Source: Cheilinus undulatus (taxonomy: Eukaryota > Chordata > Actinopteri > Labriformes > Labridae). From it: a stretch of 64,000 nt of DNA. The stretch is from assembly GCF_018320785.1 (NCBI RefSeq), contig NC_054873.1, positions 23,030,196-23,094,195 of the forward strand, given 5' to 3'. Shown piece after piece: positions 4,737 to 59,140 of the stretch. The position numbers and the translations under genes were made by a program. Positions within the stretch are counted from its first letter, which is position 1. Each line of letters starts with the position of its first letter. The notes under the pieces were generated by a model that did not search any database, was not told where the DNA came from, and was given only the letters and a program-made list of their open reading frames with translations.

Positions 4737-15500
<10,764 letters not shown>

Positions 15501-24500: not shown

Positions 24501-27500
24501 CACAGATGAATCCTAGACATGGGCTACAAATTTTAGAGCACTTTATGCTTCCTTCTGCTCACAAGCTTTATGGAGATGCTGATTTCATTTTCCAGCAGGA
24601 CTTAGCACCTGCCCACAATGCCGAAGGTACCAAAAGCTGGTTCAAAGACCATGGTGTTACTGTACTTGATTGGCCAGAAAAATGGCCTGACCTGAACTAC
24701 ATAGAGAATCTATGGGATATTGCCAAGAGGAAGATGAGAGACACCAGACCCAACAATACAGATGACCCGAAGGCCGCTATCAAAGCCGCCTGGGCTTCCA
24801 TTACACCTGAGCAGTACCACAGGCTGGTCGCCTCCATGCCACGCCGCACTGATGCAGTAATTCATGCAAAAGGAGGCCCAACTAAGTATTGAGTGCATAG
24901 AAATGAACATACTTTTCAGAAGCCTGACATTTCTGTTTAAAACATCCTTTTTTATTGATCTTATGTAATATTCTAATGTTCTGAGACACTGAATTTTGGG
25001 TTTTCATTATCTGTAAGCCATAATTATCAAAATTTTAAGAAATAAAGGCTTGAAATACTTCACCCTATGTGTAATAAGTCTATATAATATATAGGTTTCA
25101 CTTTCTGAAATGAGTGACAAAAAATATTGAACTTTTTTGATGATATTCTAATTTTTTGAGATGTACCTGTAAATAGTCAATAACCCATTTAAATGACTTT
25201 GACAGATCCAAAAAAAAAAAAAAAAAAATTACCTCTGAGAACACCATATCCATAATGAAGCATGTTGGTAGCATCATGCTTTGGGGCTGATTTTCTTCTT
25301 CAAGAACTATGCAACCAAGCCATGTTTTGAGACGTATTGCCTTTTATTCATAGACTTTTTTCACTGTTATGTCTGTTTAATAGATTGAATATTTTTTCAA
25401 TATTTTTGCTAATTCACATAAAAGAACACAAGTCAATCATGTCAGTGTGACTTGGGCTGGCATTACACCAGAGGACTTTGCTAAAACTTTTTAAAGACTC
25501 TAAAGAGACTAACATCTGAGACCCTCTTACATGTAAAGACAATTTGTCAGCAAGTCGCAGAGTTTTTAGGGCTAATCCCATTTCTACCGCTTAACCCTTC
25601 CCCTTCCTCTACCCCTTGAAACAGAGTGGTAAGGGGTAGGGGTGAGAACCTTCCCTTAAAAAATGAGACACCCCTTGATTGTTGTTCATCATCATACATT
25701 GCTGATAAACAGTTGCGTCATCAGAGGTGACAACTAAGCTTCAACCATCTCGTTCATACTGTGGATCTCCGTGTTGATCTTATTTATCCATTTGTACAGT
25801 TAATAGCCCACGTCTACGCGTATACATACCGAAAATACAACAACCTCCCATCCCTAGTAGCTAAAGATTGAAAATATGAGAAAACCTCAACCGTTTTTTC
25901 CATAATCATTTACAAAGGCCGAAAATATTTACAATTACATGCCTCCTTTGTTGTCCATTGTGCTATTTCGCAAGTGAATGCAGTGCATGGTGGGAAATTC
26001 ATCAAACCCCTTGGTTTCAAGTGTGGTCCTGAAAAATCTATGTTTCAAGGGCCATGTAGCCCTTAGCCCTCAATTCAAAAGACAATTGGGACACCTCTTT
26101 CCCTGACGGGAATGTGCAAAACCCAAGGGAGGGGCCAAGATAAGGGCCAAAGGTAGAAATGGGATTGACCCTTAGTCTCAGACTAAGGTTTTGCAAAGAC
26201 AGTGGGTCACTGACTCTAAGACTAGAATATAGGGCCGCAACAACAAATCGAAAATTAAAAGTGCTGGCAACAAATGTTGACTGGATAAAAACAATAGCCA
26301 TGGACTGTCAGGCGTTCATGTAATCCATGATATTTGCCACACTTTGTGTGCTAAATGTCTGCTAAAATTTTAACAGGAGAGAGGAAGGAAGAGTGTGAGC
26401 TGCAGTCACAGGGCAAGAGGAGCAGTTGGATGTGTATGTGTGACAGAAGAGATAGTCTGTGTGTCCGTCTGTGAGTACGGGTCAGTCTGACAACAAGCAT
26501 GAACGAACTAACATTAGCTTGTTGAATAAGTAAGTGACAAATGTTTTTAAGTTATCATTAAATCAATAACTGCAAGAGGCTTACCTGTAGCTCCTCTCGG
26601 ATAAAATAACTGAGAGAAGATGTAATCAAAGCAGTATCCCACTATAAGAGTATTTCATTCCAATCATATCCCCAGGCTGTTGTCATTAGTATGATCTTAA
26701 AGTGTTCATGTATGTTTTGAGAGAGGGAAGCAAGGTAAAAACCATAAGAATATATCATTTTCATTTTCTTAAATCATTTATTACATTTTGTGTTTATTCT
26801 GTGGCATGTTCAAGTTATTTAATTTAACAGAACTCATAAAAATCTAGTTTTCTTTTAGTTTTAAGAATATAGACATTTAAACTCTAACATTATTTTGACA
26901 GCTTGGAATATCCGTGTTCAATTCTTAATGAAGGGATCTACCCCTGTTGGCTGTTCACACTGAAACGAAACGGTAGGCATATGCAGATTTGTTGACTCTG
27001 GGACCCGGTTTCAAAAAGTAGCGTTTACGGCCTCCCAAAACGCCTATCAAGGATACTCTGGCATCAGTTAATATGTTGTGACAAAAAATAACAAGACAAT
27101 AAGAACACAAAATTGTGTTTCATACAAGTGCAAATTTGGAATTTCCAATAATTTCACAGCTGCACTGAACAGCAAAATAAGTAAGTGCATAACTAGTGTA
27201 CTAATGATTATGATGAGTGATTTCAAACACATCAACAGAAAAAAATTTGTGCAAGAAATTATAATACTGTCTGTAATATATTTTCATGGTAATTAAGCTT
27301 TTAAATAGTAACGAGAGGGTTGTTTGCCCCCTGCAGTTATTCTCTGCTCTCCAAATGTTGACGTTTACCATCTCTATAACAACAAAAATCTACATTTTAA
27401 ACCTGGACAGGAACTAGATCTGCTGCCAAAAAGTAATCTGAAATCTTGTTTTTACAATGGCAAAAAAACCAAAATACCAATAATATATTTAAACAGCATA

Positions 27501-39500: not shown

Positions 39501-42163
39501 CGAGATATATAAACAATTTTAGTGTGCCTGTACATACACACACACACACAAATAACACCAATTTCACTTAACCTGATGCAACTGATGCAATTAGGTGGTG
39601 GGAATATCAAGCAGTCCATCACATAACACTATGCTCCATATTTTATAACACTGAGTGCCACTACCAGAAACAGTGTTGCATTAAATACATTATCAGTATA
39701 ATAATGTTATTTTAGACATCTACTTTTAATTTTAGTCTTAGCCATAGGATTACATGTATTTTAGCTTTAGTCACATTTTGGTCACTTCTATCCTTTTTAG
39801 TTTTAGCCTTTACTTTTAGTCCAAGCATTTATTCTCTTGCCTAAATCTGGTACGAAGGAAAGGTAGTGTGCACTATGCACCCTGCCAAACCTGGGGTTGC
39901 TTTCTCCTGCTAAGAGGCAGATTAGCTACAGATGCATTGTTTTTTGACAGATTTACCCACAATGGAGAAGTATCAAGGACTTTTAATGTCCAACAAAAAC
40001 TAAATTACATTTTAGTCTAGTTTCAGGCATCTTGACAAAAACCAAACTTACTTTTTCGTCAGTTTTAGTCATTATGAATCTATCTTTGGCTAGTCTTAGT
40101 CCAGTTTTCATCATGGAAAAAAGGCTGTTTACAAACATTTTTAGTCATAGCTTTAGTCAATGAATTTTACACTGCAGTATAATAAAAGAGGAAGACTATT
40201 AATCCCAATCTCCAGTCTTATTCTTTTTTTCAGGATCTTTTAGTTTTACAAATATGTATGAGGGATTTCTACAGCCATATGAACACAAATGCTGTCAGCC
40301 AAGTATCAAACACACAAGCAGAGGCAGTAGACGTTTGCTTAAAAGCAAAACAGTTCCTAAATAAAATGAAGAAGGTACTAAAGTAAGGGAACTTTACAAC
40401 AATAATGCCTTTATTACAACAGCGCAACAATGATTCCTACTTGTATTAATCTTAGAGTGCTTAATTTTCCTCCTTTTATTGACAGACTGTGATTTGTGGT
40501 GCTGTTGAACTGTAATGACCAGAGGGCGTTTTCTGCTATCTGGTCTGCACTTGCTGATACAAATCAAGGAAATTCCGGTAAATACATCTCAATGTATTCA
40601 TGGACAATGTTCAAGTATCTTTGTCTGTTTGATCCCCAGTGTAATGATAGAGATCTTTGATAGTACATACGTTTATTAATGTGAAATAAAATATGCCGCT
40701 AGCAATTTTATCTCAAAGAAACTACTGTGGCCAGGACAAAACAGTCAGTTAGCACAGCTACTAGTTTAATCTACATCTGAATGCATCAGGTATACTGTTT
40801 TTCCTTCATTTACATTACCCACATTTTAAAAAGTATATTCAGGAAACAAATGCAAAGATTGCCTTTGAAAAGTTGTGCAAAGAAAATCTGCAAATTAAGT
40901 AGGTAGTCCTAAAACCTATTTTTAGAAGAATCACCATGACAGTTGTCTCTGCTGAGGAAACTACTGACTGTCATGGGGCTTTACTATCTCCACGATACAC
41001 TTAATTCATCCTTTATTAACAAAGTGTGTCTATAGTGGCATAAGGACTAAGAAAAACGTACACGCGTATGCATTCTTTACTTTAAAACGTAAACGGTCAA
41101 AGGCCTATCAGGACCCCTTTCCATTTCACTCTGCAACCAAGTTAAGTGAAAGGAAATGGAGGCCCAAGTTGACGTGAAGGCGAAGGGCTACAATGAGTTT
41201 TTAAGATATTTCATTTTATACACAACTGATACCAAAGAATACGTTTCATCAATATGACTGTTTCCTACAGCTTTTGAAAGGGCTGATAAAAGCCTGTCAA
41301 ATAGCATCTAACTTGCTAACCCACTCGATGACCAAGCCTTTCGTTCACCATTAAATAACGGTAAAGCTAACGTTATTAGGCAAGATTTGTAATGTTCAGC
41401 AAAAATAACAAAATAATCACATTATTGTCGCCGTTAAACGAGAGGTGGCAGTCACCTAAATCTAGAACTTAATACGTTATGCTGTTCCTTCTGGGTGCTA
41501 GGTTAACGGTTATCGTTGGCTTCTAGCAAGCTTGCTAACTTAGTAGCTAATATTAGCTTAGCAAACGCTTCTGCCAACTTCTCAATAGGGATAAGACTAC
41601 TTCCTGGAACTAAATGCATATAATATACGTTTTATGGATTGATATACAACTCAGTTCAAATATCTCTCAATTTTGAACATTAGGCACACACAAAAGTTAG
41701 ATACATTGAGTAAAACGATCCTATGTTAATCTTATCACTCTTGTGAAACTGCCAACTTCCAGCAAGTAAACTACTCCTACAAGGCTAACGGCTAAGCTAA
41801 CGTCCGTGGCCTGTTTATGCTTCACCCAAGCCTGGACCCCGGTCTTTCCTGACGTTGACATACCAAAATACCTACCTGGATGACCTCGTTGACCTCCCTG
41901 ATACACTCCACCATATGCTGGAGGATCTGTTCGGCAGTCAAAACCTCGAAGCGGTAGTCCTCCTCCTCTTCTTCGCCGGGGCCGTGGCCACCTCCACCAG
42001 TTTCACCGCACTCGTCTCGCTCTCCACCAGCCACCACGGGATCGACCAACTCCACCTCCCCGAGCTCCAGGGTGTCGTCCTCGGGCTCCTCTTCGGCGCT
42101 GTCCTCGCTACATTCCTCCTCTTCGTCGTCGTACTCATAGTTATAACCCTCGTCTGAGTCCAT
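21555..42163 (-). CDS. arih1: Ariadne-1, RBR-type E3 ubiquitin-protein ligase
   Basis: Fourteen coding exons on minus: 42163-41876, 37622-37555, 37405-37258, 32571-32479, 32388-32333, 31570-31504, 31328-31222, 31130-31088, 30977-30906, 30729-30599, 28385-28328, 27980-27720, 21833-21721, 21639-21555. Every junction is GT-AG and in phase; the product is 529 aa against 557 in human, the shortfall lying in the acidic/Gly-rich N-terminus. Order: acidic tail (1-75), UBA-like domain (about 78-120), RING1 (C158, C161, C175, H177, C180, C183), IBR, RING2/Rcat with the catalytic Cys at 329 (GGCNHMVC, equivalent to human C357), then the Ariadne domain to the end (LWEYIED). The family takes ubiquitin from an E2 such as UBE2L3 as a thioester on the Rcat Cys and works with neddylated cullin-RING ligases. 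The start at 42163 (MDSDEG) matches human; an in-frame ATG at 42181 is less likely. It is intact and likely functional. Confidence 0.97.
22303..22460. mobile_element. Tc1-type terminal repeat fragment
   Basis: The stretch TATAAAAGTCTACACACCCC followed by AACAAGTTTTTGTGGTGTAA is a common terminal repeat of a fish Tc1 family. It may belong with the small transposase scrap at 25225-25300, split by the later Tc1 insertion at 22963. That link is inference. Confidence 0.45.
23248..24168. mobile_element. Nested non-autonomous DNA transposon (possibly hAT)
   Basis: The host Tc1 text (CCTGAGCCTTCA ... AATGGTTTCTCAGTCTGG) is split here. The ends of the insert, GGGTCCGATGTTAAGG and the inverse of CCGACATTAACGGTTGCC, form an imperfect inverted repeat. 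GCCTTCA and GCCTTTA flank it and may be a target duplication with a mismatch. The inside has no transposase but has several ACTTGCCC motifs near both ends. Exact borders are uncertain by a few bases. Confidence 0.5.
24225..24892 (+). pseudogene. Tc1 transposase pseudogene (core deleted)
   Basis: Bases 24225-24500 encode the paired-like DNA-binding part ([20 protein letters not shown]). Bases 24506-24892 encode the end of the catalytic domain, with the second Asp and the Glu in [10 protein letters not shown] and the usual end PTKY. The part between, with the first catalytic Asp, is missing, and a stop separates the two. Confidence 0.8.
25225..25305 (+). mobile_element. Tc1 transposase scrap
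   Basis: The bases read as a decayed version of the Tc1 block that encodes MKHVGGSIMLWG (GAAGCATGTTGGTAGCATCATGC). It is too short and broken to say more. It sits just right of the complete Tc1 copy. Confidence 0.5.
25569..26171. mobile_element. PIF/Harbinger-like MITE
   Basis: The ends GGGCTAATCCCATTTCTACC and the inverse of GGTAGAAATGGGATTGACCC form a clear terminal inverted repeat of about 20 bp. Weaker inverted similarity extends further in. TTA stands on both sides (25566-25568 and 26172-26174), the three-base TWA target duplication typical of PIF/Harbinger. It has no coding capacity and lies in arih1 intron 12 (between the exons ending at 27720 and starting at 21833). Confidence 0.65.
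28738..28998 (+). repeat. Dispersed short repeat (SINE-like / RTE-tail-like)
   Basis: It starts TTACCTCCGCCAAGGAGGTTATG, followed by a (TTTG)-rich stretch, GTTATGGACGGATTTTGATG and a GGATCACCGTCTGGATCC core. It ends CTCCGAGTGCTTTTCTAGTT. This pattern is a widespread dispersed repeat in fish and many invertebrates. The exact family name is not certain from sequence alone. Intronic in arih1 (intron 10). Confidence 0.6.
29218..29900. repeat. Unclassified GC-richer block in arih1 intron 10, probably a transposon remnant
   Basis: From about 29400 to 29880 the base composition jumps well above the intron around it. A TATA-like TCTATATAAAAGG stands at about 29461. There is no long open frame and no conserved exon of arih1 here. 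An insertion of mobile DNA is the most likely reading, but no ends could be defined. Confidence 0.3.
32572..37257 (-). other. arih1 intron 3
   Basis: A 4.7-kb intron between the two exons that together encode RING1. Apart from the hAT-like MITE at 36312-36738 and a short (CTAT)n run near 35846, nothing is recognised. Open frames at 35432-35941 have no family resemblance. Confidence 0.8.
36312..36738. mobile_element. hAT-type MITE with perfect 8-bp target duplication
   Basis: The element begins TAGGGATAGGAATTAA and ends TTACCATTCCTA, an imperfect inverted repeat. GGACTAAC precedes it (36304-36311) and follows it (36739-36746) exactly, an 8-bp duplication as hAT elements make. There is no coding content. 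It is in arih1 intron 3. Confidence 0.7.
37623..41875 (-). other. arih1 intron 1
   Basis: A 4.25-kb intron after codon 96. Besides the dispersed repeat at 38229-38412 and a (CA)n run near 39536-39550, no feature was found. The strip next to exon 1 (41300-41870) is richer in CpG and in TAGC/GCTA words, as expected near a promoter. Confidence 0.8.
38229..38412. repeat. Dispersed repeat (LINE/SINE tail type)
   Basis: It contains the string TTTATATAGCGCCTTTCAAG followed by CCCAAGGACGCTTTACAG, a very common dispersed repeat core in animals, usually a retroposon tail. It is in arih1 intron 1. The borders are approximate. Confidence 0.55.
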
Positions 42164-43024: not shown

Positions 43025-46000
43025 ATGGAAGTCATTTGTAAGCGAGGTAAAACCTTTCCAAATTTTTATCTACTCGTATTAATTATAGCCCAAGTGGGCT
43101 TACACATAGTGGAGGGAGTGTGGCCACTACCTCAGAGTTTCATCTCCTCACCGGAGCAGTACCGACTCAACCCACAGGCTCTCTACTTTGGATACGGAAG
43201 ACAATCAGCCGCACAGCCGGGATGTACTGTTCTAGATTCTGCATTCAAGAGATACTTTTCTCTTGTTTTTCCTGACTTCACTTCTGGTAAGTTTTAAAAG
43301 GAGGTGGGTATAAGGCTAAAAGCAAGATTTAACACCTTGCTTAAGTAACAAGATCCACAGATAATAGAATACAAATAAGCTATTCATAAAGGTGTTTGTG
43401 ATACGACCAGACGTTGCTGTGTCAACTTAAAGTTGCCCTCAAACAATATATAAATTGTGTATCTAGTGTAGGCTTTAAAGGTTAATCTCGAATCCAAGAT
43501 TATGTTATGAATGGACAGTGCATAATGCTGCCTGGTTTTATGGTGTATGTTTTGTCATGCCTTTTAAAGCAGATCAATCGGCTTTGTAGAAACAGCAGTT
43601 CATCAGTCAGCCAATGTAGTAAAACCTGCTCTATACAGCCCACAATGAAAGCAGGCTGAGTAACATTTTGTTTTTTATGGTTAACAAAGGTTATGGGATA
43701 GAGGAAGCTTAAAGCTATAAAAATAAAACTGTACATGTGATGCTTTTACTTCTGCAAAACTTTAACCAAACATTCAATGTCTTGTAATCATTTCCCTAAT
43801 CATATTAATCTTAATAATAATCATAATAATAATCATATGTCCAACAGGTTATGGTGCCCTTCGATTCAGTGCAGATACACCATTCAGTGTTGTGGTCAGT
43901 GTTGACCATGATGATTGTGAAGGTTACCCAAGTGAGGATTCCTCCGAAAGATGTAGGTATTTTTGAGAAACATATCACAGATGATGTGGCCATGGCTACA
44001 ATCATACAAGCAGATTAGGTTTGATGCATTTTCTTACCTGCTCTTTTTTTGTGTTCCAGACAGCCTGACTGTCTCTGCGGGGCATGCATCTCTGAATGCA
44101 GAAACGGTGTGGGGTGCTTTAAGAGGTGAGCTGTTGTTAAGTAGACTGCTAAGAAACATCTTTCGTTGGCAAAGCCTGTTAAGCAGGTTTTACAGGATAT
44201 GTCATGGTATCCGACATTAAACTCTCTTCAAACAAATTTGTTTTAAATTTTATTTTAGTTTTAAAACATGTTTTTTGGCTTTTTAGGCATTTATTTATTG
44301 AGGAAAACAGTGGATAGAATTAGAAACAGGGATGAGAGGGTGGGAGAAAGACATGCGGGAAAGGAACCACAGGCCACGGCTGCCTGTGCACATGGGCTTG
44401 GCCTATGCACTAGGCCATCTTAGTACCCCCAATCTTTATTATTTTTCAAAATGTATTCAATTAAAACAATACACTCAAGATGCAAGCATATAATTAACTC
44501 TTTACAACCCAATGCCACTAGATAAGTACAAGTACAAGGAAAAAAAGTTGAACATAGTTGCTATTCTTCTAAGCATGGTCTTAATACATTTTATTTTTTC
44601 ATACTCATTTATTGTTTCAGTTTTTTTTTTTAGGATTATGCTCTTTAACCTAAAACTGCGTTAAAAAAACAATATCAAACATTTGTTTCATTCCACTTCA
44701 AAAGAAATCACAGACCCAATAAAACACTGTATTTAATTCACCAAGTATTATTTTTTGAGGGCTCATTGTTTATAATAGAAAATACAAAGCTAGCCATTTC
44801 ACCAAGGTTATCCAGAACATCACGGCATGTTAACAAAACCAAAAAGGTTGTGTCACATTTTCAGTTTCATGCAGTATTGATCCTTTTCAGATTCTATATT
44901 CTATGACGATGATTCTTTTTTTTCCTTTTTTTTTTGGGGGGGGGGGGGGAATCCCATTTGAAGCTTCTTTTCTCAGTTACCTTTTCCAGTTCATATATAT
45001 ATATATACAGTCATGGAAAAAATTATTAGACCCTTGTTTTCTTCAATTTCTTGTTCATTTTAATGCCTGGTACAACTAAAGGTACATTTTTTTGGACAAA
45101 TATAATGATAACAACAAAAAAGCTCATAAGAGTTTAATTTAAGAGCTGAGATCTAGCCATTTTCCATGGTTTTCTTGATAATAACCAAAATCACTTAAGT
45201 TCTTACATCAATAGCTATGGCATTGTACTGCCAAAAACAGTGCTTTTAGGCATTCCATGTTTTCTTTTCTGTCTGTTAGTCACATGATACACACAGGAGT
45301 TAGTACTTGATTGCATAACCATTGTTTTTGATGACTGCAGCCATGCGTCTTGGCATGCTCTCTACCAGCTTCTGACATTGTTCTGCTGTCACAGCAGCCC
45401 ATTCCTGTTGGAAAAATTCAACCAAATTTGCTTTGTTTTTGGGCTTGTGGTTTTCCATTTTGAGTTTGATGATGTTCCACAGGTTTTCAGTTGGATTTAG
45501 ATGTGGTGATTGAGCAGGCCAAGGTATGGTTTGAATGTTCTGGTTCTCCATCCAGGCTTTAACTGACCTTGCCATGTGGCAAGGGGCATTATCTTGTTGG
45601 AAAATCCAGTCATTCAAGGCAGGAAAGAGTTTATCAGCTGATGGAAGAAGACTGTTTTCAAGAGTAGCCTTGTACATGACCTGGTTCATTCGCCCTTCAC
45701 ACAATTGCATTTGCCCTGTTCCACCCATAATGAAACAACCCCAGATCATCACCGATCCACCCCCATGTTTTACTGTGGGGGCGAGACAGTCTGGTTTGTA
45801 GGCTGCTCCAGGCCTCCTCCTAACCAGTAAGTTGGCTGGAATGGGCATCAACTCAAAATTGGATTCATCACTGAAGAGAACCTTAGCCCAATCATCAACA
45901 GTCCAATCCTTGTGATCCCTAGCAAAGAGTAACTGGGCCTTCCTCTGCCTTTCGTTGATGAAGGGCTTCTTCCGTGCCCTGTGTGACTTCAGACCAGCTT

Positions 46001-49000
46001 CAAGAAGTCGGTTTCGAACTGTCCTTGCTGAACAAGTCACATTTCTCGACAGTGCCCACTCATTTTTAAGGTCCCTGGAGGTCTGACGATGATTCCTGAC
46101 ACAGGAACAAATGAGTGCACGGTCCTCTTGTGGGGTAGAAAGACGTTTCCTGCCTCGACCAGCTAGCAATTTGGTAGTACCATGTTCGGCTTGTTTTTTC
46201 TTGGTATAATGAACGGCTGTCTTGGAGATCTTCAGTTTTTTGGCTACCTGTCTCTTACTCATGCCAATTTCCAGCAGTGCCAAGATGGCTGCCTTTGTGG
46301 CTTCACATAATTCTTTTGTTTTAGGCATTATGTTAGAGCTGACAACTTCTGAGTTGTGCTATGGCTTGAATGCAAGCAGTAAACCACTCTGGGCCTTTGC
46401 ATATGCAGTGCTGCTTATGACATGAAATGGCCTCTTATATACCCTGGGAATACAATTAAAGGTGCAGTGTGTAATATTTAGCCTAGTAGCATTTAGCAAA
46501 ACAAACTTGGTTAAAATGAAACATAACATTTATAAGTAGATTGATCTAAATTAGTGTTGACATCTGATAACACATTTTTAAATTTATGTTTTAAATTAAC
46601 TCAGAATAAGCCTTTTATTCATACATAGGGAGGGTCCCCTCCAAGGACGCTGCCATCTTGGATTTTTGCATTTTGCCTGTTTCTATGGCACCATAGAAGG
46701 AGCCAAACAACAGTTAAGCATGTATTGATTTTTAAACCTCACTGGTTTCCACAGTTATCACCAGAGAAATGAGCATCACACTCCAGAATTGACTGTTAGA
46801 TGTTGATATTCCCAATTTTACACACTGCACCTTTAAGCTTAAGCATGTCAAATAGGACATAAAGTATAATGGAATTAGCTGCATTTTTTGTCATGTTCAT
46901 TGTATTCTTCAGGTAATATACCTTTAGTGGTATCAAGCATTAAAATGAACAAGAAATTGAAGAAAACAAGGGTGGTCTAATAATTTTTTCCATGACTGTA
47001 TATACATTTTAGGCATGTTTGGGCTGAAATTGGAGGCTGAAGTAAGGCGTGTAATGGCGAGTATGCTCACCTTAGGAAGGAAAGAAGATTGACACAACCC
47101 AGGTCATGCTCTGAATGTCTTTGTACAAGGGCATGGGAAAATAATCTCTGAAAACTAAACAAAAGGCACACAGCTTTAGGGTGGAGTTATGGGTAGATGT
47201 GGCACTTAAACATAGTCTGGGGTACTGTTAGGGCAGGTCGAAGGGTTGCCACAACCCCCTGGTTGTCATGTGTATGTTCTGAGCACCTGAAAACTGTTGG
47301 TGGTGTTTGGGTGTATTACCAGGGGTGCAAAGGCCTGGACAAAAAAATGCTGTTAAGCTCGACATTGGCTGCTGAGGGACACACGTACATGTCAAATGTG
47401 TCGACGCTGGCCGCCCTCCCTCCTCTCTACAGCCCAGGGTTGTGGAACATTTGCCAGAAGTATTCGCTCACCTGCCTTGACTCGCATATGGATTTAAGTG
47501 ACATCCCATTCTTAATCCATAGGGTTTAATATGATGTCGGTCCACCCTTTGCAGCTAGAACAGCTTCAACTCCTCTGGGAAGGCTTTCCACAAAGTTTAG
47601 GAGTGTGTTTATGAGAATTTTTGACCATTCTTCCAGAAGTGTATTTGTGAGGTCACACACACCGATGCTGGACGAGAAGGCCTGGCTCTCAGTCTCCACT
47701 CTAGTTCATCCCAAAGGTGTTCTATCAGGTTGAGTTCAGGACTCTGTGCAGGCCAGTCAAGTTCATCCACACCAAACTCTCTCATTGTCTTTATGGACCT
47801 TGCTTTGTGCATTGGTACACAGTCATGTTGGAACAGGAAGGGTCCATCCCCAAAGTCCATCCCCAAAGTTGGGAGCATAGAATTGTCCAAAATCGCCCCT
47901 TAGTTCCTTTCACCGGAACTAAGGGGCCAAGCCCAGTTCCTGGAAAACAACCCCCCACCATATTCCCCCCTGCAACAAATTTTACACTTGGCACAATCCA
48001 GTCAGACAAGTACTGTTCTCCTAGCAATCACCAAACCCAGACCCGTCCATCAGATTGCCAGATTGAGAAGCGCGATTCGTCACTCAAGAGATGCATCTCC
48101 ACTGCTCTAGAGTCCAGTGGCAGCGTGCTTTACACCACTGCATCTGATGCTTTGCATTGCACTTGGTGATGTATGGCTTGGATGCAGCTGCTCGGCCATA
48201 GAAACCCATTCCATAAAGCTCTCTACACACTGTTCTTGAGCTAATCTGAAGGCCACATGAAGTTGGGAGGTCTGTAGCGATTGACTCTGCAGAAAGTTGG
48301 CGACCTCTGTGCACTATGCGCCTCAGCATCCGCTGATCCCACTTCATCATTTTATGTGGCATACCACTCCGTGGCTGGGTTGCTGTCGTTCCCAATTGCT
48401 TCCACTTTGTTGTAATACCACTGACAGTTGACTGTGGAATATTTAGAAGCAAGGAAATTTCACGACTGAACTCGTTGCACAGGGGGCATCCTATCACAGT
48501 ACCATGCTGGAATTCATTGAGCTCTTGAGAGCGACCCGTTCTTTCACAAATGTTTGTAGTAACAGTCTGCATGCCTAGGTTCTTGATTTTATACAACTGT
48601 GGCCATGGAAGTGATTGGAACACCTGATTTCAATTATTTGGATGGGTGAGTGAATACTTTTGGCAATATATACAGTGCTTAACAAATTTATAAGACCACC
48701 TGTCATATTTGTCTCAAAGACCATCCAGCATCATGAAGTGCTTTAATGCGGACTCTTTCATTTTCAGTGAGCTCTCCACGTTTTACCATTTTGAACAGGA
48801 ATGAGGGATTTCAAACTGAATTCACCCAAATTTGAGCTGGCTCCCTGGGCTTCTCTGAGAAGTCAGAAATTAATCAAGCATAACATTCAACCACTAAAAC
48901 TCATTTTTATGTTCAGGAATGCAAGTAAATAACTATAATTTGACATATTAATCAAGAAATATCAATGTGCTTTACTATTTTTTCAGGGTTTTTTGTAAAT

Positions 49001-52000
49001 TAGTACATTTGAAAATTCACCGATAACAATAATTATTGTAATTTAGCATTAAAAATATCATTTGGGTTAAAGAGCTTCTACATATTGGTGTATTAACCAT
49101 TGCAGTGGTCCATCTGACCATGTCAGTGATGGATTGCATTAAACTTTGAATGTAAGTCCAAGCCTATCAAAGCCTATCTGGAAAACAATACATTTCTCAT
49201 GATATGGCTTGAGATCAGACAGCTTTGCAAAACCATCAGTATCTGTAAGTAGTGCCTTCAGATAGTTTTCTTTAGAAGATAAATAGAAAATTGTTCCATT
49301 TGCATATAGTGCTCCCTTAAACGTACTCAACATACTTTAATCAGTGCTGATTGTGACTATTCTTCCTCTGATTAAGCACAGGTCTTGAAACCTTCAGTCA
49401 GCTGGTGTATCAGGATGATTATGGCTTAGTAAGTCCAAATTTTCTCAAACTTACTGGGCATCTTGAGTCATTACGCCTTGAATTCACAATCTTAACTTAT
49501 CATGATTAATGTTGATGTATGTATTTCCTGGTTGTTTCTTTTTTCAGTACTTTGTGAACAAAACTGAGATTGAAGACTTCCCCCGCTTTCAGTTTAGGGC
49601 TATTTTGTTGGACACTTCGCGACACTATTTACCAGTGCAGACCATCTTAAAAACTCTGGTAATGATTAAGTGGCATACTCCAATCTTCACATCCTGTTGC
49701 AGTGATCACCATTTTTATTATCAGTGCCATTAATGTATATTTTCTTTGGTAGGATGCAATGGCCTACAGTAAGTTCAATGTGTTTCATTGGCACATTGTT
49801 GATGACCCCTCCTTCCCTTACCAGAGCCGCACCTTTCCAGACCTCTCCACAAAGGTATGTTCTGTAAATGAAGACAGCTGTTATGGATGAGGAAATGTAA
49901 ACCACCTCAAGTCATGTGTACAGAAACTGTACCTCCACTGTATTTTCCTTGAAAAAATGTTTCAGTACTTTAGAAGATGTAAATGTAGGGGTTGTATCTC
50001 ACCCTAGATCTTTTACTCAGCCTACTACATATGGATTAATAAGGCAGGAAAGCTCTGAAAGGTCACATTAACCCTGAACAAAGATTTCTGGCTATGATTC
50101 AGGGGGCTTTCCATCCGATGACTCACATCTACACACAGACTGATGTGAAAAGGGTGATCTCACATGGCCGACTGCGGGGAATAAGGATCCTTCCCGAGTT
50201 TGATTCACCTGGTCACACCAAGTCTTGGGGAAAAGGTAAAATTATTACACCAAGTGAGCTATGTTTGCTGATCAAAAACAAACGTTTTAAAATCCATATT
50301 ATCTCAGCTCTGCGCTCTTTACATAGTACTTTGAATTATGTGTAGTTTGGACCAACAGGAATACTGTCTGCCAAGTAAGACTTTATACCTTTTAATGCAC
50401 CAGTGCTAACAGCAAACAGCAAAACATTTATTAAATCTTCAGGTTGACTCACTTTGTATTGGGAGGACTCTCAGGGTTACATCTTTGGCAACAAATTCCT
50501 TTACTCATCAGACCATATTCAAAAGTCATCCAGTTTTCTCTGACATCATTCTAGGGTGGGAAGCTCAAGTCATTGTGCTACACTCCAGTCTGCATAGATA
50601 CAATGACCAGATATAGTTCAGTCAGGATCCCTTTGTCAAAAACACACATGATTTGTGATCATAATTTTTTGTTTTTATTAGCAGTTAATAATTTGCTTTT
50701 AATGCTCACATGAGATCAGTTGATCTTGATTATCTATCAGTGCTTGACTCCGTAGCCTGGCTGAACTAGTGTTATATGCTCAATTATATCTGGAAGTAAA
50801 TCTGGCTGTCTTAGTTTCAAGTTAAACCAAAACATTTGTTAATTTAGCTAACCCCACTGTCAACTCACACTTACATTCAGGAACTTACTGCTAAAAATAC
50901 CATTAACTAGGGTGTAGCTTAATGTTAACATCACTGTGGTGGTTTTTGTGGTACCAAAAGCAAAATATTGCTAACCTGATATCAGCTGGAGACGTAGTTG
51001 TTTAGCATACTTTATTGCCTTAAGGTAGCAAGAGGTTTATTAAAATTGTTTTTAGAAAGAGACATGTTTCATTTGTCCTTAAGAGGAAAGTCAATTGTTC
51101 ACTCTGTTATTGGACATGCTACATACACACAGGCTATGAGTACACAAATACACATGCACTAATAGACAGATGTCAGAGTTTTAGGAAAGGTAACCCACCG
51201 CACTGTAGATGATTAAAAACAATTCTTTTTTTGGTTCCTGCTAAATCTGATTTAATTAATACTGTCATATAGCCTCTATACAACAAAGTACAATACCACA
51301 GGAAATTAGCAGCTCTGTGAGTTGTGACTCTGTTAAATGCAAGAAATGTTATAATGTTTTATGTTGTTCTGTTCTGTTATACAAAAACACAACATTGCCC
51401 ACCATACCTATGCCGATGACACTCAGCCGTATGTTTCACTTTCTCCTGATGATCTCAGTCCTGTACATAACCTACTAAGATGCATTGATGAAATAAGCAA
51501 ATGGATGTCCCATCATTTCTAAACAAAGACAAAACTGAAATACCAATAGTCCCGCAAAAACAGAAGCAAGAGTTCATCTCCATGTCATCATTCCCTCTAC
51601 AGCACAGTGAGCATGTCATCAGAGGTGTCATCATTGATACGAATCTGAACTTTCAAAATCACATAACAGGTATTACAAAAACAGCATTCTACCACCTTAA
51701 AAACATTTCTAAATTGAGATACTTCATGTCACAATCTGACTATGAAAAGCTGGTTCATAAATTTATATCCAGCAGGCTGGATTACTGTAACGCCCTTTTT
51801 GCTCAACTTCCTAAAAAGTCAATTGGAAAGCTCTAGCTCACCCAAAACACTGCAGCCAGAGTGATTACAAGGACAAGGAAAACAGAACGTATTCCACCTG
51901 TACTGAAAAATCTTCACTGGCTTTCTGTTCAGTACAGAATTGTTTTCAAAATATTACTTCTTGTCTATAAATATTTGAATGCTATGGCACCTCAATATCT

Positions 52001-55000
52001 TTCTGACCTTCTCACTGACTACCATCCCATCAGACCTCTCCGATCATCAGGCATGCGTTTCCTCAATGTACCTAAAATTAAAACTAAAACTGGCGAAGGT
52101 GCATTTAGTCACTATGGTGCTGTCCTCTGAAACAAACTGCCTGCTGACCTGAGATCTGCTGAAACATTTGGTTCCTTCAAAAGTGGCCTTTAAATGCTGC
52201 TTTTCTCTCAAACCTTTGGCTGCTAGGTTATCTTTGTGTGAAGAATTGTTCATGGATTTGAATGTGCTCCTTTTAGGAGACTCCAACATTAGTAAATGCA
52301 AAATGCTGCACAGATTGGTGCAAGGTGTGTCTGAGATCTTTAATTATTTTGCCTGAAATTTCTGTTTTTCTTGACTCAATGGTGTATCTTTGTTGCTGTT
52401 TGTTTTGCGTCTGTTTTTATCTTCTGTAAGGCACACTGAGTTTACATTTGTATGAAACATGCTGTATAAATGAAATTGTATGATTTTTTTTTTTTCTTCA
52501 GGGCAGTCTGACCTGCTGACTCCCTGCTACAAAGGGAGCACCCCATCTGGTACTTTTGGTCCTATAAATCCAACGTTACCCTCCACATACAAGTTCATGG
52601 CAGCACTATTTAAGGAAGTGTCATCAGTATTTCCTGATTCCTATATCCACTTAGGAGGTGATGAGGTTAACTTTTCCTGCTGGTAAGCTCAAATGTTACA
52701 GAGCATTTGAATGCCTGCAAGCTGTGATGAAAAATACCAGGAATTCCTGGTTTTGAAAGTTATTTTGTTCTATTTTTTTTTCTTAGTTTTGCATAAAAAT
52801 GTGCAAGTTATGTCATTATCAAGAATTTTTACTTCTGTTCCATCCAGTCCTGCTGTTTGGACCCACTGTATGTAGTTTGATGTTTGCACATATGATGTTA
52901 TATGAAAATCTGCAGAAAAAAAACAGATATTTTTGTGGAATAAAAAGAAAGGAATCAGAAGGTACCTCATTATTAAGGCAGATGTGACTGATGAAGATAC
53001 ACGTCTCTTAAGATCACAATTACAGAAAGAAAAAAAATACTGTTTTAATACAGTTGTAACTCAGTATCTGAAAAATTATTCTTAAATAACTAGTGTAATT
53101 CACATACAGATAATTACAACCCCCTTGTTTTCTATAGGAAATCCAACCCTGATGTTCTTGCATTTATGGAGGAGATGGGTTTTGGAGGAGACTTTACCAA
53201 ACTTGAAGCATTCTACATGGAGAAGTATGTCATTTAAGGGAACATTCAGTCCATAAAGCTCTGGTAAAAAAATGCACAAAACTAACAGTAATGTTACAAA
53301 TGTCAATAACAGCATAGTGAATATCACCTCAGCTCTCAACAAGACTTCTGTAGTGTGGCAGGATGTGTTTGACTACCATGAGCAGGTAAGTGCATCCCAC
53401 TACCTTGATATTTGAAATATGTATTCTTGTGTCAGTGTTGTTTATACATGAATACAACCCTTTCATAGAATATTTCAATTTAAAAAATTAACTATAATTC
53501 AGTGTTTGACAAATAACATTACATAATTGGATGAGTTAGAATACTGAACAAGTCCATCAAGTCTGAAAGTGTTTAGCGTTGTGTTGCAGCGCAACTCTTT
53601 TGCAGTGGTGGAGGTATGGAAAGAGGGCTGTTACCTGTGTGAGGTGCGCAGAGTTGCTAAAGCAGGGCTCAGGGTGATTCTGGCCTCTCCGTGGTATCTG
53701 GACCAGCCAGGCTCCACACACAACTGGGCCCGCTACTACACTGTGTGGCCCCTTGCCTTCAAGGGTTAGAATAATGTGTGCAGTGGTTGATTGATGTTTG
53801 CAAACTGCTGTTGGTTTTTACTCTAAATGTTATTTTTAGTTACAGCTTAGTTCCCTGAAATTGTAAGATCAGTGGGCCAGACCTTTGTGACCATCAGTTC
53901 AACACAGAACATTACATAAATGGCCATGCCACTAGGTGGCATTGGTTGATTCTCATGCCTGACTGTTGAAGACACATTTATCGATCTGTGTTTCAATTTT
54001 GTATTTTATACAAAGTAAAGCTAAAAAGCATTTCACCAGTACTTTGCTAGATCCTTGAATGCTAGAAAAAATTGTTGTGTTTTCAAATTTGGACACAGTC
54101 ACACAGAGCTGGGATAACTGCAGAATAATGGCACAGTGCTGGTTGATGCACAGCCCCATGGCTTCATACATTCTCTTCCCTAAATATTGAGCATAAACAT
54201 AACATGACTGGAAGTTATTTTGCAAAGCAATTTGTGTTAACTATAAAACCACAGGTCTACAAAGGGGAGAGAGGAAATACTATCAAAACTGGACTGAAGT
54301 TCTGTAAGACTCAGACTGTTTTATCAAAAAAAAAAAAAAAAAGTTATACATGATTTACTCACTATTAATTACACAAACTGTACATGATGCTGTGTTTCTG
54401 ACTCTGTAGGAAATAGCTCTCCCTTTCGACCAAGAGGCAACCTCCAGTCCTCAAAAATCAAGCCAATGTGGAAGTGCAAAAAATTGCAATATGACGAGTG
54501 TCCACTTGAGGCTGGCTTCAGAAACACTGGAAGTCCCATACATAACACATGATAAAAAGCCTTTTTCTACACCATAAATTAACTGGTTTACAGCCTGGTT
54601 CAAAAAAACAAATGTGTCTCAATAGCTAATGTCTTCATGTCCTCTCGCTGTGCGGGGTGGGGTGTGGGTGTGTGTGTGTGTGTGTGTGTGGGGGGGGGTC
54701 CACAGTTGTTTTGATTATATTGAGGAAAAACCTTGCTGAATGCTAGCTAGCTAGCTGACAGGAAGTCAAGTTAGTTGTTGGGTTGTTAGGTTGATCCACA
54801 GTTTGGTTGAGACAGTGATTTCAATATGGAAGCTGCCGTGGATTGACTTCAAAAGCAGTTTGAGTCCGCCCATTGTAATTAGACGGCTGACATGACGCAG
54901 GGTTTGTCCAATTCTTTTTACAGTCTATGCTTTCAACACATACGTACCCCCTATTTTATAGATTTACTTTATTGATGCCATCAGACAAGTAAGACAGCTG

Positions 55001-56154
55001 TCAAATATGTGTCTTGCATGTTTGCGTCTCAGAGAGGATGATCAAGACTTGTTTCTGCAAACACTTTCAGATCAAGATGGTGAAAATACAAGACATTTTA
55101 GTATATAACACAATGATATTTAGTCTAATTGTTTAAGATAAAACTGTTTTTATTCAAGCTTAAATAAAGTCATCAAAACAATTATGAAGCAGCACAATCC
55201 ACAGATTACAAAAGGGCTGGACAGCATGTTGTTTGTCAATCTGTGCAGATTCCTAAGGACACAGTGCTGCATATCTGGAAAGGCTTACCAGCTAAATATC
55301 AGGACGAGCTCAGCAAGATCACCAAAGCTGGCATGAGGGTCCTGCTGGCGGCCCCTTGGTACATCAACCATATTTCCTATGGCCAGGACTGGCGCAACTA
55401 CTACACTGTGCAGCCACTGAACTTTTCTGGTGTGTTCATGGCCAAGTTAAATCACATCATACCAATATAAGTTGTTTCTTGTGCTGGTGATGGGGGTTGG
55501 TGATAGAAGCTTTTAACTGAAGTGCAGTAGTAAATACCAATTTTAATATTAAGTAGTTGAATTTTTATTGTAGTGTTGTGCTGAATTTCAAAGATTTTGA
55601 TTCATTACTTGTCTGTCCCTGACTTATGTGATTATTAAATGAATGCTCGCTTTTTTCCCACCTCAGGAACTGAGGAACAGAAGAAGCTGGTAATTGGGGG
55701 TGAGGTCTGCATGTGGGGAGAATACGTCGACGCAACCAATCTCAATCCACGTCTATGGTATGGAATCAAAAGGACCACAGATGTTATACTTTAACTGATA
55801 TAGTAAATGTTGCAACACTAAAAAAAAACACACACACAACACTGATTTTGTACCCAAACTTGCAGGCCAAGGGCAAGTGCTGCAGCAGAAAGACTGTGGA
55901 GTGATGAGAAGCAGACCTTCAATGTGAACAAGGCCTTTCCTCGTTTGCAGGAATTTCGCTGCAAGCTCTTGAGGTGCATTACCTTTTCTACCAAGACCAT
56001 TTAAGAAATTACCTCTGACACTTCTAAAGACATTCCTCAGAATTTTAGTCCAATTACATTTTGATGTTTGTGCTTTTCTGTCTTCTAAAGGCGTGGTATC
56101 CAGGCAGAGCCTCTATTTGTAGGACACTGCAAACATGAGTACCAAGGGATTTGA
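43025..56154 (+). CDS. hexa: Beta-hexosaminidase subunit alpha (lysosomal, GH20)
   Basis: Coding exons: 43025-43286, 43848-43952, 44060-44125, 49382-49428, 49548-49658, 49753-49854, 50103-50235, 52502-52682, 53138-53224, 53313-53385, then either 53590-53764 or 55249-55429, then 55667-55757, 55866-55973, 56091-56154. With the downstream alternative exon the product is 536 aa (human 529). A hydrophobic signal segment lies at residues 14-28. Catalytic landmarks, with human numbers: R185 (R178), D214 (D207), H269 (H262), D329-E330 (D322-E323, the acid/assistant pair in HLGGDE), W380 (W373), W399 (W392), W466 and E468 (W460, E462). It removes terminal GalNAc/GlcNAc from glycoconjugates in the lysosome; as alpha-beta heterodimer with the GM2 activator it degrades GM2. 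The ATG at 43025 puts the signal peptide near the N-terminus; one at 43007 adds six residues. An extra copy of exon 11 is described separately. Confidence 0.96.
44262..44432 (+). repeat. SINE-like dispersed repeat, copy 1
   Basis: Text of the type GGCTTTTTAGGCATTTATTT ... GACAGTGGATAGA ... GGGAGAAAGACATGCGGGAAAGG ... GCACTAGGCCATCTTAGTACCCCC is a familiar fish dispersed repeat. A second, shorter copy lies at 56915-57040. It is in hexa intron 3. Confidence 0.55.
45300..46328 (-). CDS. Tc1-family transposase, full length and uninterrupted
   Basis: 342 aa on minus from ATG 46328 to TAA 45300, the usual length for Tc1 transposases. Residues about 1-110 hold two helix-turn-helix motifs ([16 protein letters not shown]; then [14 protein letters not shown]), with a GRGRKR hook between them. 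The catalytic triad is complete: D154 (FSDESNF), D246 (QQDNAPCH) and E281 (NPTENLW), with 34 residues between D246 and E281 (DD34E). It ends in the typical GYAIKY. Such enzymes cut and paste the element at TA sites. The usual NPIENLW reads NPTENLW here. No stop or frameshift was seen, so the gene is either recent or active; transcription is unknown. Confidence 0.93.
   Translation of the reverse strand: MPKTKELCEATKAAILALLEIGMSKRQVAKKLKISKTAVHYTKKKQAEHGTTKLLAGRGRKRLSTPQEDRALICSCVRNHRQTSRDLKNEWALSRNVTCSARTVRNRLLEAGLKSHRARKKPFINERQRKAQLLFARDHKDWTVDDWAKVLFSDESNFELMPIPANLLVRRRPGAAYKPDCLAPTVKHGGGSVMIWGCFIMGGTGQMQLCEGRMNQVMYKATLENSLLPSADKLFPALNDWIFQQDNAPCHMARSVKAWMENQNIQTIPWPAQSPHLNPTENLWNIIKLKMENHKPKNKANLVEFFQQEWAAVTAEQCQKLVESMPRRMAAVIKNNGYAIKY
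46456..46836. mobile_element. TTAA-flanked MITE nested in the Tc1, copy 1
   Basis: TTAA at 46456-46459 and 46833-46836 bracket a 373-bp insert with near-perfect inverted ends (AAAGGTGCAGTGTGTAA). TTAA targets are typical of piggyBac-type elements, though the ends are not diagnostic. The internal block around 46620-46680 matches the copy at 18477 in reverse. It must have inserted after the Tc1 arrived here. Confidence 0.7.
47448..48670 (-). mobile_element. Second Tc1-family element in hexa intron 3, decayed
   Basis: The ends read TTTGCCAGAAGTATTCGCTCACC (left) and the inverse of TTGCCAAAAGTATTCACTCACC (right), a short terminal repeat. The transposase is on minus: the N-terminal DNA-binding part at 48084-48623 ([19 protein letters not shown]), the [15 protein letters not shown] end at 47609-47890. 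The frame is shifted between about 47890 and 48085, where the TCCATCCCCAAAG tandem duplication (47840-47870) also lies. It cannot make a functional protein. Confidence 0.8.
48672..49110. mobile_element. Tc1-type terminal repeat with flanking fragment
   Basis: CAGTGCTTAACAAATTTATAAGACCACC directly follows the TA that ends the preceding element. It is a well-known Tc1-family terminal repeat. The matching inverted end is not found, so the copy is truncated and its right border is a guess. Confidence 0.45.
51361..52495 (+). mobile_element. L2/CR1-type LINE fragment, 5' truncated, in hexa intron 7
   Basis: The fragment begins just before the reverse-transcriptase box YADDTQ (TATGCCGATGAC at about 51409). 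It continues through the typical carboxyl end of fish L2/CR1-like elements ([62 protein letters not shown]), with one stop at about 51834 and one at 52127. It ends with a 3' tail of the TATAAATGAAATTGTATGA type (52470-52490). The 5' part of the element is missing, as usual for LINE copies. Confidence 0.8.
53590..53764 (+). other. hexa: hexa exon 11, upstream alternative copy (11a)
   Basis: 58 codons plus one base, open throughout; acceptor TTGCAG at 53589, donor GTTAGA at 53765 (somewhat weak). It is preceded by the phase-0 end of exon 10. It keeps the family signature of this exon: EVWKEG at the W392 site (W399), [17 protein letters not shown], and [10 protein letters not shown]. At the position of human alpha Asn423 it has Asp; human beta also has Asp there (Asp453). 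At the next position it has Gln where human alpha has Arg424. The SYG triplet present in most relatives is replaced by GST. Joining it to exon 11b gives a stop at once (GAT TCC TAA), so only one copy can be used. Confidence 0.75.
54410..54950. repeat. Dispersed repeat between the two alternative hexa exons
   Basis: The stretch with GTGTCCACTTGAGGCTGGC, GGAAGTCCCATACATAACAC and the closing GTCTATGCTTTCA is a dispersed fish repeat; a related fragment is at 17390. It encloses a (GT)n run at about 54665-54690 and a GCTAG run at about 54743-54754. It takes up about a third of the DNA between exons 11a and 11b. Confidence 0.45.
55249..55429 (+). other. hexa: hexa exon 11, downstream alternative copy (11b)
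   Basis: 60 codons plus one base, phases 0 to 1, acceptor CTGTGCAG at 55248, donor GTGTGT at 55430. The translation matches the constitutive human exon 11: HIWKG with W399, [27 protein letters not shown], and [10 protein letters not shown]. Asn429 takes the place of human Asn423, a residue linked to binding of charged substrates in the alpha subunit; His replaces Arg424. This is the canonical exon for an alpha-type enzyme. Confidence 0.9.
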
Positions 56155-57500: not shown

Positions 57501-57949
57501 GTGACTGGACCAATCAGGAGTAAGAGGCTGTTTTTTTTTTTTTTTTTTTGTACTTTATTGAACATTAAGGAGTAAGCGGCAGTACTTTCAGGCACGGCGA
57601 AGTCATGACGTAAGCAAGCAGCAACAAAAGGCCGGTGCAATTATGGCGTGGATGCTGCTATGGCATCAGTTTATCAGAATGGCATTTCTTCGTTAAATGA
57701 AGAACAAAGAACAGCATTGAGTTTGATTTCTTTTCAAAAACAACAAAAGTCATGTACTGACATGTCTGCAGTCGTCATGGTTCACGTTATTAAGCTCTCT
57801 ATGGAGTTTACCCCTCGGCAGGGGCGCACCTCAGTAGCAGCTATGCCACATGTTTTGTTGCTCTGTTTGGCTTGTAAAGATGTCACAGACAGAACATTCA
57901 TCCAATCACCCTGCGAGTATTTTTTCAAAGGCTCTGCCCTTTCCCAAAC

Positions 57950-59140
57950 GCTGTCTATCAGAGATTTACCAGATGGATGTGTAAAAGAAATCCATCTGGC
58001 GTGTCAGGTTAGGTGTCTTATGGATTCAGTCACATTACTAGCAGCCCAAGGTTCCCACAGAGTAACGGAAAAGTGGAACGAGCTGTACAGACTGAAAAAT
58101 CTTCTGAAGAAAGCAGCAGGCTTTACCAAGTACTCCTTACTTATAGAGCAACACCTCTTCAGAATGGATATAGTCCAGCTCAACTTCTCATAGGCAGGCG
58201 TCTTCGTACTATTGTGCCCATTCTCCCATCCCAGTTAAACCCTTTACTGCCTAAAGGCACCATGCTTGCTTTTATGGAGGAGGAGAAGATGACATCAGAT
58301 GCTAAAGTCTTCAACAGGCGTTACCGTGCAGAAACTCTGAGTGCCTTGTCACCAGGAGAACAAGTGTGGGTGACAGACATAAAAAAGATCTGGGACTGTA
58401 CTCCAGAAACATTCAACTCCAAGATCTTACCAGGGAGACCTGCCCTGGGGTGTGGTGAGAAGAAACCGACAACACCTGATACCTTTTCACACATCAGATC
58501 AAGACAGAGTTCTCTGCTGCAGCAAAGTATGCCTGAGTCAGCTGCTGAGCAGGCTCCAACATCACCTGCTGTAGTATCCAAAGACTCACCAACAGAGACT
58601 CCTACTCAAGGAAGTAGATTTGGGAGAGCCATAGTGAAACCTGTATGACTGAATTTGTGAAAACAAAAGTGACTGAACTTTGGAAAAAAAGGTGAAAAGT
58701 AAATGAGTAAAAGTTCTAAGAAAATGTTGAAAATATAGAAAAGAGCTAAAGCTAATGAGTTCGAAAAGAGTTGAAAATGTTAAGGGAGATTAAAAGTTTA
58801 ATAACCCCAAGTAATTGGCTAATGTTAACAGTGTTCCTCTCACAAAATAGTTTATAAGAACAGGCCTTTCAACAAAGAGGCAGAATAATCCTCTAAGGTC
58901 TGTCAAGACAAAGGTAGTCTACCTTTTGTTCTCTAGAAAGGGGAGCTGTGGTGTTATTGTTCTTTTACAGTGTTAGAAAATAACAGAAGAAAACGAGTTG
59001 CGTATACTCACCACTAGGAGTCATTGTCAGTACAGGATGCTATGTTCGAGGGAGTCAAGTCTTTTCTAATAAATGGAGTCAGACACGTTCAGCGGTCGTC
59101 CCATTATATGTGTTCCCTGGGTATTAAGAACGCGACACCA
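57950..59140 (+). mobile_element. Ty3/gypsy LTR retrotransposon remnant: integrase end plus LTR
   Basis: Frame 58013-58648 contains the C-terminal integrase of a gypsy element: SSPRFPQSNGKVERAVQTEK, then LLTYRATPLQNGYSPAQLL and GRRLRTIVP, then PGEQVWVTD. It lies in two overlapping frames near 58020-58190, so it is shifted. A purine-rich tract (TAGAAAGGGGAGC, 58934-58946) and an LTR follow. The gag, protease, RT and 5' LTR are absent. The part 57600-57950 carries no recognised domain. Confidence 0.75.
58949..59140 (+). repeat. LTR of the gypsy remnant
   Basis: It starts TGGTGT next to the polypurine tract and ends ACACCA, a six-base inverted end of the TG...CA kind. It contains an AATAAA signal at about 59068. 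The partner LTR is not in the window, so the length (192 bp) is inferred from the ends alone. Confidence 0.55.

Follow-up and report, generated by a model that had tools for sequence, protein, structure and literature searches.

Can a single gene make two different subunits of a lysosomal hexosaminidase by exchanging one exon? The question is raised by hexa, the gene for the alpha subunit of beta-hexosaminidase, in a stretch of 64,000 nucleotides (nt) from the fish Cheilinus undulatus (contig NC_054873.1, positions 23,030,196 to 23,094,195 of the forward strand; hereafter the window). A preliminary description of this DNA proposed that hexa carries an alternative pair of exons, 11a and 11b, that swaps residues of the substrate site. 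We found that this pair is real and that 11a is as conserved as 11b in teleosts. Teleost hexa thus probably holds a conserved, mutually exclusive exon pair for one segment of the GH20 barrel, which would shift both the choice of substrate and the site of the partner subunit.

The 11b splice product is a protein of 536 residues, letter-identical to the Cheilinus undulatus database protein P0090 (beta-hexosaminidase subunit alpha). Both GH20 Pfam domains, PF00728 and PF14845, score above the cut-off in P0090, and over its full length this protein matches human HEXA with 686.5 bits, compared with 655-668 bits for HEXB entries. By domain content and best match, the gene in the window is a GH20 beta-hexosaminidase alpha subunit gene (HEXA).

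The coordinates and residues given for 11a and 11b in the preliminary description were correct throughout. Both exons are open, lead from phase 0 to phase 1, and have AG before and GT after them, as checked at their junctions with exons 10 and 12. They are separated by 1,484 nt and share 23 of 58 aligned residues. As had been predicted, joining 11a to 11b produces a stop within three codons of the junction (...LAFK-D-S-stop). Skipping both exons shifts the frame, so that the reading frame enforces the choice of one exon. The claim that only one of the two can be used therefore holds for a full-length protein, but not for every database entry, since 7 of 87 database 11a proteins continue like an 11a-to-11b junction. 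As homologous neighbors with equal phases, with this frame logic and with conservation in relatives, 11a and 11b are probably mutually exclusive tandem exons.

A PDB search (E <= 0.001) matched both exons solely to human hexosaminidase chains (8 distinct sequences each), the best matches being HEXA for 11b (68 bits) and HEXB for 11a (46.5 bits, followed by HEXA with 37.8 bits). In the fish's own genome (1.17 Gb; same threshold, best candidates only), the scored matches of 11a were itself, 11b, and one exon of hexb. The idea that 11a is a piece of another nearby gene was rejected, as no further exon-11-like copy scored beyond 11b and the hexb exons among the best candidates. Two mechanisms of exclusion were also set aside. 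Steric exclusion requires splice sites closer together than 1,484 nt, and both exons have GT-AG sites. RNA pairing, considered because of a 13-nt perfect inverted repeat that links the 11a acceptor region with the 11a-11b intron, is unproven, as the repeat is not beyond chance, one being contained in 22 of 300 shuffles. The intron between 11a and 11b also contains a TG-repeat run followed by G (window 54660-54699); such repeats can serve as binding sites for certain splicing factors.

The 11a exon is widespread among teleosts. When 5.8 billion database proteins were searched with the 11a segment of the spliced isoform, 86 of 89 candidates gave a match, at 68-93% identity. The species-named matches were teleosts throughout (one match, P0012, has a scaffold name only), and they span Anguilla, Conger, Synaphobranchus, Aldrovandia, Megalops, the bonytongue Scleropages, Denticeps, characins, salmon, cod, and many spiny-rayed fishes. 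The 11a part of a Megalops protein matched 47 of 53 candidates, which added the catfish Clarias and no named non-teleost. Taxa such as cyprinids, pufferfish, gar, sturgeon, and tetrapods gave no 11a match in these searches, which is not evidence of absence; the searches report representatives of clusters that have words in common with the query, and some genes may be incompletely annotated.

We then compared the two exons in species having both isoforms. Eight of 11 such species (28 species pairs) were used, with Amphiprion, Metynnis, and Cyclopterus excluded for odd, fused, or hybrid models. Pooled identity over the whole exon was 80.7% for 11a and 79.8% for 11b, and in the same species pairs it was 82.0% for the 250 residues upstream and 82.6% for the downstream part. 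This indicates that, its start excepted, 11a is under about the same constraint as 11b. When the first five residues are left out, the values are 85.5% for 11a and 78.4% for 11b; the view that 11a is the most conserved stretch holds only in this trimmed comparison and was dropped, the whole exons being equal. The preliminary description had named stops and neutral dN/dS in close relatives as grounds against the proposal, and our check at the protein level revealed neither stops nor protein drift.

Exon 11 encodes three elements of known importance in the human enzyme, namely, the pair at alpha 423/424, the IPV398 loop, and the loop holding beta Tyr456. The difference between alpha N423-R424 and beta D452-L453 is reported to account mainly for action on charged substrates, as alpha R424 pairs with the 6-sulfate or with the sialic acid of GM2 and beta D452 repels both; the alpha loops GSEP283 and IPV398 are believed to assist in complex formation with the GM2 activator (PMC3587417). 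Hexosaminidase monomers are described there as inactive because the neighbor completes each site. Beta Tyr456 belongs to the alpha active site (PMC4449183) and touches Ile454 of the partner (PMC2492878).

Residues were counted in two alignments, one of 84 of the 87 11a proteins (at least 52 exon residues) plus the window (85 rows), and one of 67 of the 69 database proteins of the 11b set plus the window (68 rows; two proteins with fewer than 52 aligned residues were dropped). In the window, the alpha 423/424 site reads Asn-His in 11b and Asp-Gln in 11a, in agreement with the preliminary description. Asp occupies the Asn423 site in 85/85 rows of 11a, and Asn-His is present in 67/68 rows of the 11b set, the exception (P0158) grouping with human HEXB. 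The loop Tyr, which is present in human alpha and beta, occurs in 68/68 rows of the 11b set and 0/85 rows of 11a. Exon 11b keeps ISYG, and its loop at the place of human IPV398 is one residue shorter than that in human alpha. Exon 11a has PGST in place of ISYG, is without the loop holding human IPV398, and encodes 58 residues, as in HEXB. Across fishes, PGPTH replaces ISYGQ in 77/85 rows of 11a; the PGSTH of Cheilinus, caused by a Ser at codon 42 of 11a (window 53713-53715), is found in 1/85. A motif, GCY[LMH]C (GCYLC in the window), is present in all 85 rows of 11a; of the 69 proteins in the 11b set, only P0157, a hybrid model, has it. The description of 11a as more beta-like was only partly right: the Asp at the 423 site and the short loop agree with it, but the lost Tyr and Ile and the gained GCYLC are like neither subunit.

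These differences suggest how the two forms might act. The 11b form would be the usual alpha subunit, with Asn-His in the charged-sugar pocket, a longer loop at the IPV398 place, and a Tyr reaching the partner's site. In the 11a form, Asp-Gln would be expected to repel sulfate and sialic acid, and the absence of the extra loop would be expected to cost a contact with the GM2 activator; both features should thus disfavor GM2 and sulfated substrates. With PGPTH instead of ISYGQ, the 11a form could not give a Tyr to its partner. A dimer containing it would shift its preference away from GM2 and sulfated substrates to neutral ones, and the site of its partner would be changed or weakened.

The same residues also allow another reading, in which the 11a subunit has no hexosaminidase activity of its own and is a dominant-negative form, a chaperone-like alpha, or a partner of another protein, the lost Tyr and the GCYLC motif altering dimerization and not substrate choice. 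The Ile and Tyr at the places of beta 454 and 456, which contribute to the dimer contact (PMC2492878), are lost in 85/85 aligned rows of 11a, and monomers are inactive (PMC3587417). However, all 69 distinct 11a rows covering these positions retain the Trp of VEVW and, in PWYLD, the Tyr, Leu, and Asp, as expected of a working site, with the caveat that the Trp of PWY is Phe in 6/85 rows. We therefore regard an inactive 11a subunit as rather unlikely, but as the strongest of the alternatives.

As for whether 11a is used, many of the 11a database proteins are gene predictions with names such as "isoform X2," and alternative gene models of this type are generally backed by RNA evidence. Judged by pattern, 71 of the 87 continue into exon 12. 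In seven of the 87 (P0024, P0031, P0032, P0050, P0068, P0081, and P0042), 11a is followed by DS or DP, as the 11a-to-11b junction predicts; six of them end right there, and P0042 reads on for 15 residues. Joint inclusion of the two exons thus seems to occur, with a stop as its outcome. If this were the main function of 11a, the exon would be regulatory, its inclusion beside 11b lowering alpha output by nonsense-mediated decay, and the stop within three codons in Cheilinus, as well as the six proteins ending at that point, would be in keeping with such a role. We consider this improbable, since conservation at the amino acid level, in which 11a equals 11b, is not required of a poison exon; besides, most 11a proteins continue into exon 12, and the 11a protein of Aldrovandia is, as annotated, encoded by a gene of its own. 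That 11a is a decaying, never-used leftover of an old exon duplication, as its donor (gttaga, weak by eye) and its absence from the Cheilinus database protein might suggest, is hardly credible, because a relic or pseudoexon is already contradicted by the identity of 68-93% among teleosts, by the constant motif, and by a degree of conservation that matches 11b.

Several observations count against a substrate-shifting exon pair. The first five residues of 11a, taken alone, are 45.5% identical among species, versus 95.0% for 11b. The aligned rows are cluster representatives, including several isoforms per species, and are not independent. The named isoforms are gene predictions, and two of these models are hybrids: P0157 (Denticeps), in the 11b set, has a first half of 11a, including GCYLC, and a second half of 11b, and P0070 (Cyclopterus) is a mixture of 11a and 11b near its 3' end, each being joined at a shared sequence; both are probably errors of the models. 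The Cheilinus database protein, P0090, is the 11b form. In addition, the source label "lgn" was attached to seven matches of the 11b-type search (one of beta type) and to none of both 11a searches, implying that 11a may be the rarer form. Exon 11a differs from the canonical segment at 5/15 otherwise invariant columns, so that it may be inactive or regulatory. The position of Tyr456 is held by other residues in insects, fungi, and Dictyostelium (PMC2492878), and the loss of Tyr thus need not harm a dimer. Finally, structure predictions were poor (mean predicted local distance difference test scores of 50.5 and 62.0, with the exon 11 region below 50) and cannot place the loop. Even so, we favor a conserved pair of mutually exclusive exons with different substrate choices, in which we infer from sequence both the expression of 11a in Cheilinus and the effects of the swap on substrates and dimer.

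Searching the genome of the same fish with the alpha protein, we found that hexb, on contig 17, contains two stretches resembling exon 11, here called 11x and 11y. Both lie between hexb exons 10 and 12, and 11x precedes 11y by 1,317 nt. They have AG/GT borders and phases 0 to 1; when joined they give a stop after 20 codons, and when both are skipped the frame is shifted. The hexb pair matches hexa 11a/11b in order and lengths (175 nt first and 181 nt second). Exon 11x is of the beta type and closest to human HEXB (37/58 identical), and 11y has Asn-Arg, exactly the human HEXA pair, at the substrate site. Of the 16 columns invariant in 21 canonical sequences, 11y keeps 15, compared with only 13 of 44 other columns, and this is the pattern to be expected of an exon under selection. 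Exon 8 of hexb reads GSSPSGT. The clean swap between alpha and beta residues (Asp-Tyr versus Asn-Arg) is thus encoded in hexb, not in hexa 11a/11b. Differential splicing of hexb under prolonged heat has been reported for Acanthochromis, with the kind of event left unspecified in the passages concerned (PMC8933327).

Human HEXA carries the Asn type of exon 11, and human HEXB carries the Asp type. Presumably, each human gene has one exon 11, unlike the fish pairs. One duplication before the split of HEXA and HEXB would explain both the common order and lengths in the two fish genes and the division of types in human. In a tree of exon 11, 11b, 11y, and human HEXA were separated from 11a, 11x, human HEXB, and P0158 with a support of 94/84 (60 columns, too short to date). 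Grouping by gene was not rejected (p-value of 0.2 in the approximately unbiased test). The columns that separate cleanly number two for type and none for gene among six sequences and two for type and three for gene among the four fish exons, and other quartets vary. Thus, order and lengths favor an old pair, and the sequence itself is equivocal. The HEXA/HEXB split has been placed in the vertebrate ancestor after the divergence from tunicates (PMC2492878). We see about an even chance that the pair is older than both genes, that the ancestral vertebrate gene spliced in either an Asp-type exon (175 nt, first) or an Asn-type exon (181 nt, second), and that fishes kept both in both genes while in the mammal line HEXA retained only the Asn type and HEXB only the Asp type. 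If so, the ancestral splice choice would have been one between neutral and charged substrates, the pair would explain the rise of the alpha and beta specificities, and the alpha/beta division behind Tay-Sachs and Sandhoff diseases would be a splice choice turned into two genes.

Some elopomorphs would seem to have repeated this step within hexa. In Aldrovandia, the 11a and 11b proteins are encoded on different contigs and are 62% identical over their full length, versus 91-93% between isoforms in Denticeps, Astyanax, Gadus, and Stegastes. A tree of 33 proteins without exon 11 united the 11a proteins of five elopomorphs (100/97) and, separately, the 11b proteins of three elopomorphs (93/94), with both groups and Scleropages inside one larger group (94/97). 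Aldrovandia is the sole species with both proteins in this tree set, and the 11a and 11b proteins of Megalops come from two species. As annotated, some elopomorphs therefore seem to hold the two versions of hexa in two genes, which may have arisen either by a duplication within the lineage or by an older one followed by losses. If each of these genes has truly lost the other exon, both versions were worth keeping.

Tandem-duplicated exons used in a mutually exclusive way are known in vertebrates, with 236 events in 214 human genes, more than 90% of which are common to bony fish (PMC9741552). Like these, hexa 11a and 11b are adjacent, homologous, equal in phase, presumably swapped one for one, old, and conserved; unlike the human events, the pair is, to our knowledge, seen in teleosts only. 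The fish gene also resembles human HEXA and HEXB in having 14 exons (PMC2492878), both GH20 Pfam domains, and the same exon 11 segment. Changes of function by alternative or mutually exclusive exons, as proposed here for hexa, have been described for metabolic enzymes of other families, namely, OGDH (exons 4a/4b) and Caenorhabditis elegans coq-2. Among the papers listed, from which most of the subscription literature is missing, none concerned a duplicated exon 11 of HEXA or HEXB by title or start of abstract. The earlier statement that no described hexosaminidase with this arrangement was known must be narrowed, because 11a isoforms are already annotated in many fishes, but we found no paper describing them. 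The pair itself belongs to a known kind of exon; it is 11a, the matching hexb pair, and the two-gene split for which we found no description.

By the exchange of one exon, a lysosomal enzyme of medical weight would alter the range of substrates that it accepts and perhaps also how active its partner subunit is. The fish gene is the counterpart of the subunit that fails in Tay-Sachs disease, and its splicing may decide which sugars are cut. Furthermore, the fish exons are natural variants of the same residues that were engineered in human HEXB against GM2 storage disease, where modHEXB (beta DL452-453NR plus GSEPSGT) was reported to reduce stored GM2 in mice (PMC13198282). With Asn-Arg and the GSSPSGT of exon 8, the predicted 11y form of fish hexb is nearly this designed combination occurring naturally, although, unlike modHEXB, it would arise by splice choice. 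The choice of exon 11 also bears on fish models such as hexb-null zebrafish, which survive although their hexosaminidase activity, assayed with a neutral substrate, is reduced by more than 99% (PMC6772114).

Table 1. Positions of the hexa exons, the exon-11-like stretches of hexb, and the inverted repeat near 11a (window positions unless a contig is named)
Feature	Position	Strand	Remark or basis
hexa exon 1	43025..43286	+	Start codon, signal peptide; 11b product identical to P0090
hexa exon 2	43848..43952	+	Spliced reading
hexa exon 3	44060..44125	+	Spliced reading
hexa exon 4	49382..49428	+	Spliced reading
hexa exon 5	49548..49658	+	Spliced reading
hexa exon 6	49753..49854	+	Spliced reading
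hexa exon 7	50103..50235	+	Spliced reading
hexa exon 8	52502..52682	+	Carries GSTPSGT where human alpha has the GSEP loop
hexa exon 9	53138..53224	+	Spliced reading
hexa exon 10	53313..53385	+	Phase 0 end; donor GAGCAG/gtaagt
hexa exon 11a	53590..53764	+	175 nt, 58 codons, phase 0 to 1; donor AAGG/gttaga
hexa exon 11b	55249..55429	+	181 nt, 60 codons, phase 0 to 1; donor TCTG/gtgtgt
hexa exon 12	55667..55757	+	Acceptor common to 11a and 11b
hexa exon 13	55866..55973	+	Spliced reading
hexa exon 14	56091..56154	+	Contains stop codon
13-nt perfect inverted repeat	53562..53574 (just upstream of the 11a acceptor) and 55059-55071 (in the 11a-11b intron)	+	Shuffles
hexb exon 11x	C17:5924151-5923977 (L004 C17:5918500-5928400, 5652-5478)	-	175 nt, Asp-Tyr, PWYLDYISYAQDW
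hexb exon 11y	C17:5922659-5922479 (L004 4160-3980)	-	181 nt, Asn-Arg, PWYLNRISYGQDW

The remainder of the window appears to contain traces of mobile elements and of other genes. An Rfam search of the whole window gave no match. Intron 3 of hexa holds, on the minus strand at window 45300-46358, a 352-codon open frame in which Pfam recognizes domains of a Tc1-type transposase (HTH_Tnp_Tc3_2 and DDE_3), and shorter open frames at window 10564-11124, 24476-24892, and 48084-48629 resemble it by eye. A stretch in intron 7 (window 51400-52260; YADDTQP) resembles what we take to be part of a reverse transcriptase, and overlapping open frames 3' of hexa (window 57609-58648) resemble what are presumably pieces of a retroelement integrase.

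Among the database models, P0023 (Nibea) and P0054 (Xenotaenia) combine nuclear receptor and hexa sequences in one protein (Pfam PF00104, PF00105, and PF00728), probably because neighboring genes were run together. On the minus strand of the window, at about 41876-42163, the acidic start of a protein resembles that of ARIH1, a neighbor of HEXA in humans, which would fit a conserved gene order. An open frame of 1093 codons with Pfam DUF5525 (window 4722-8003) is probably a large coding exon of another gene.
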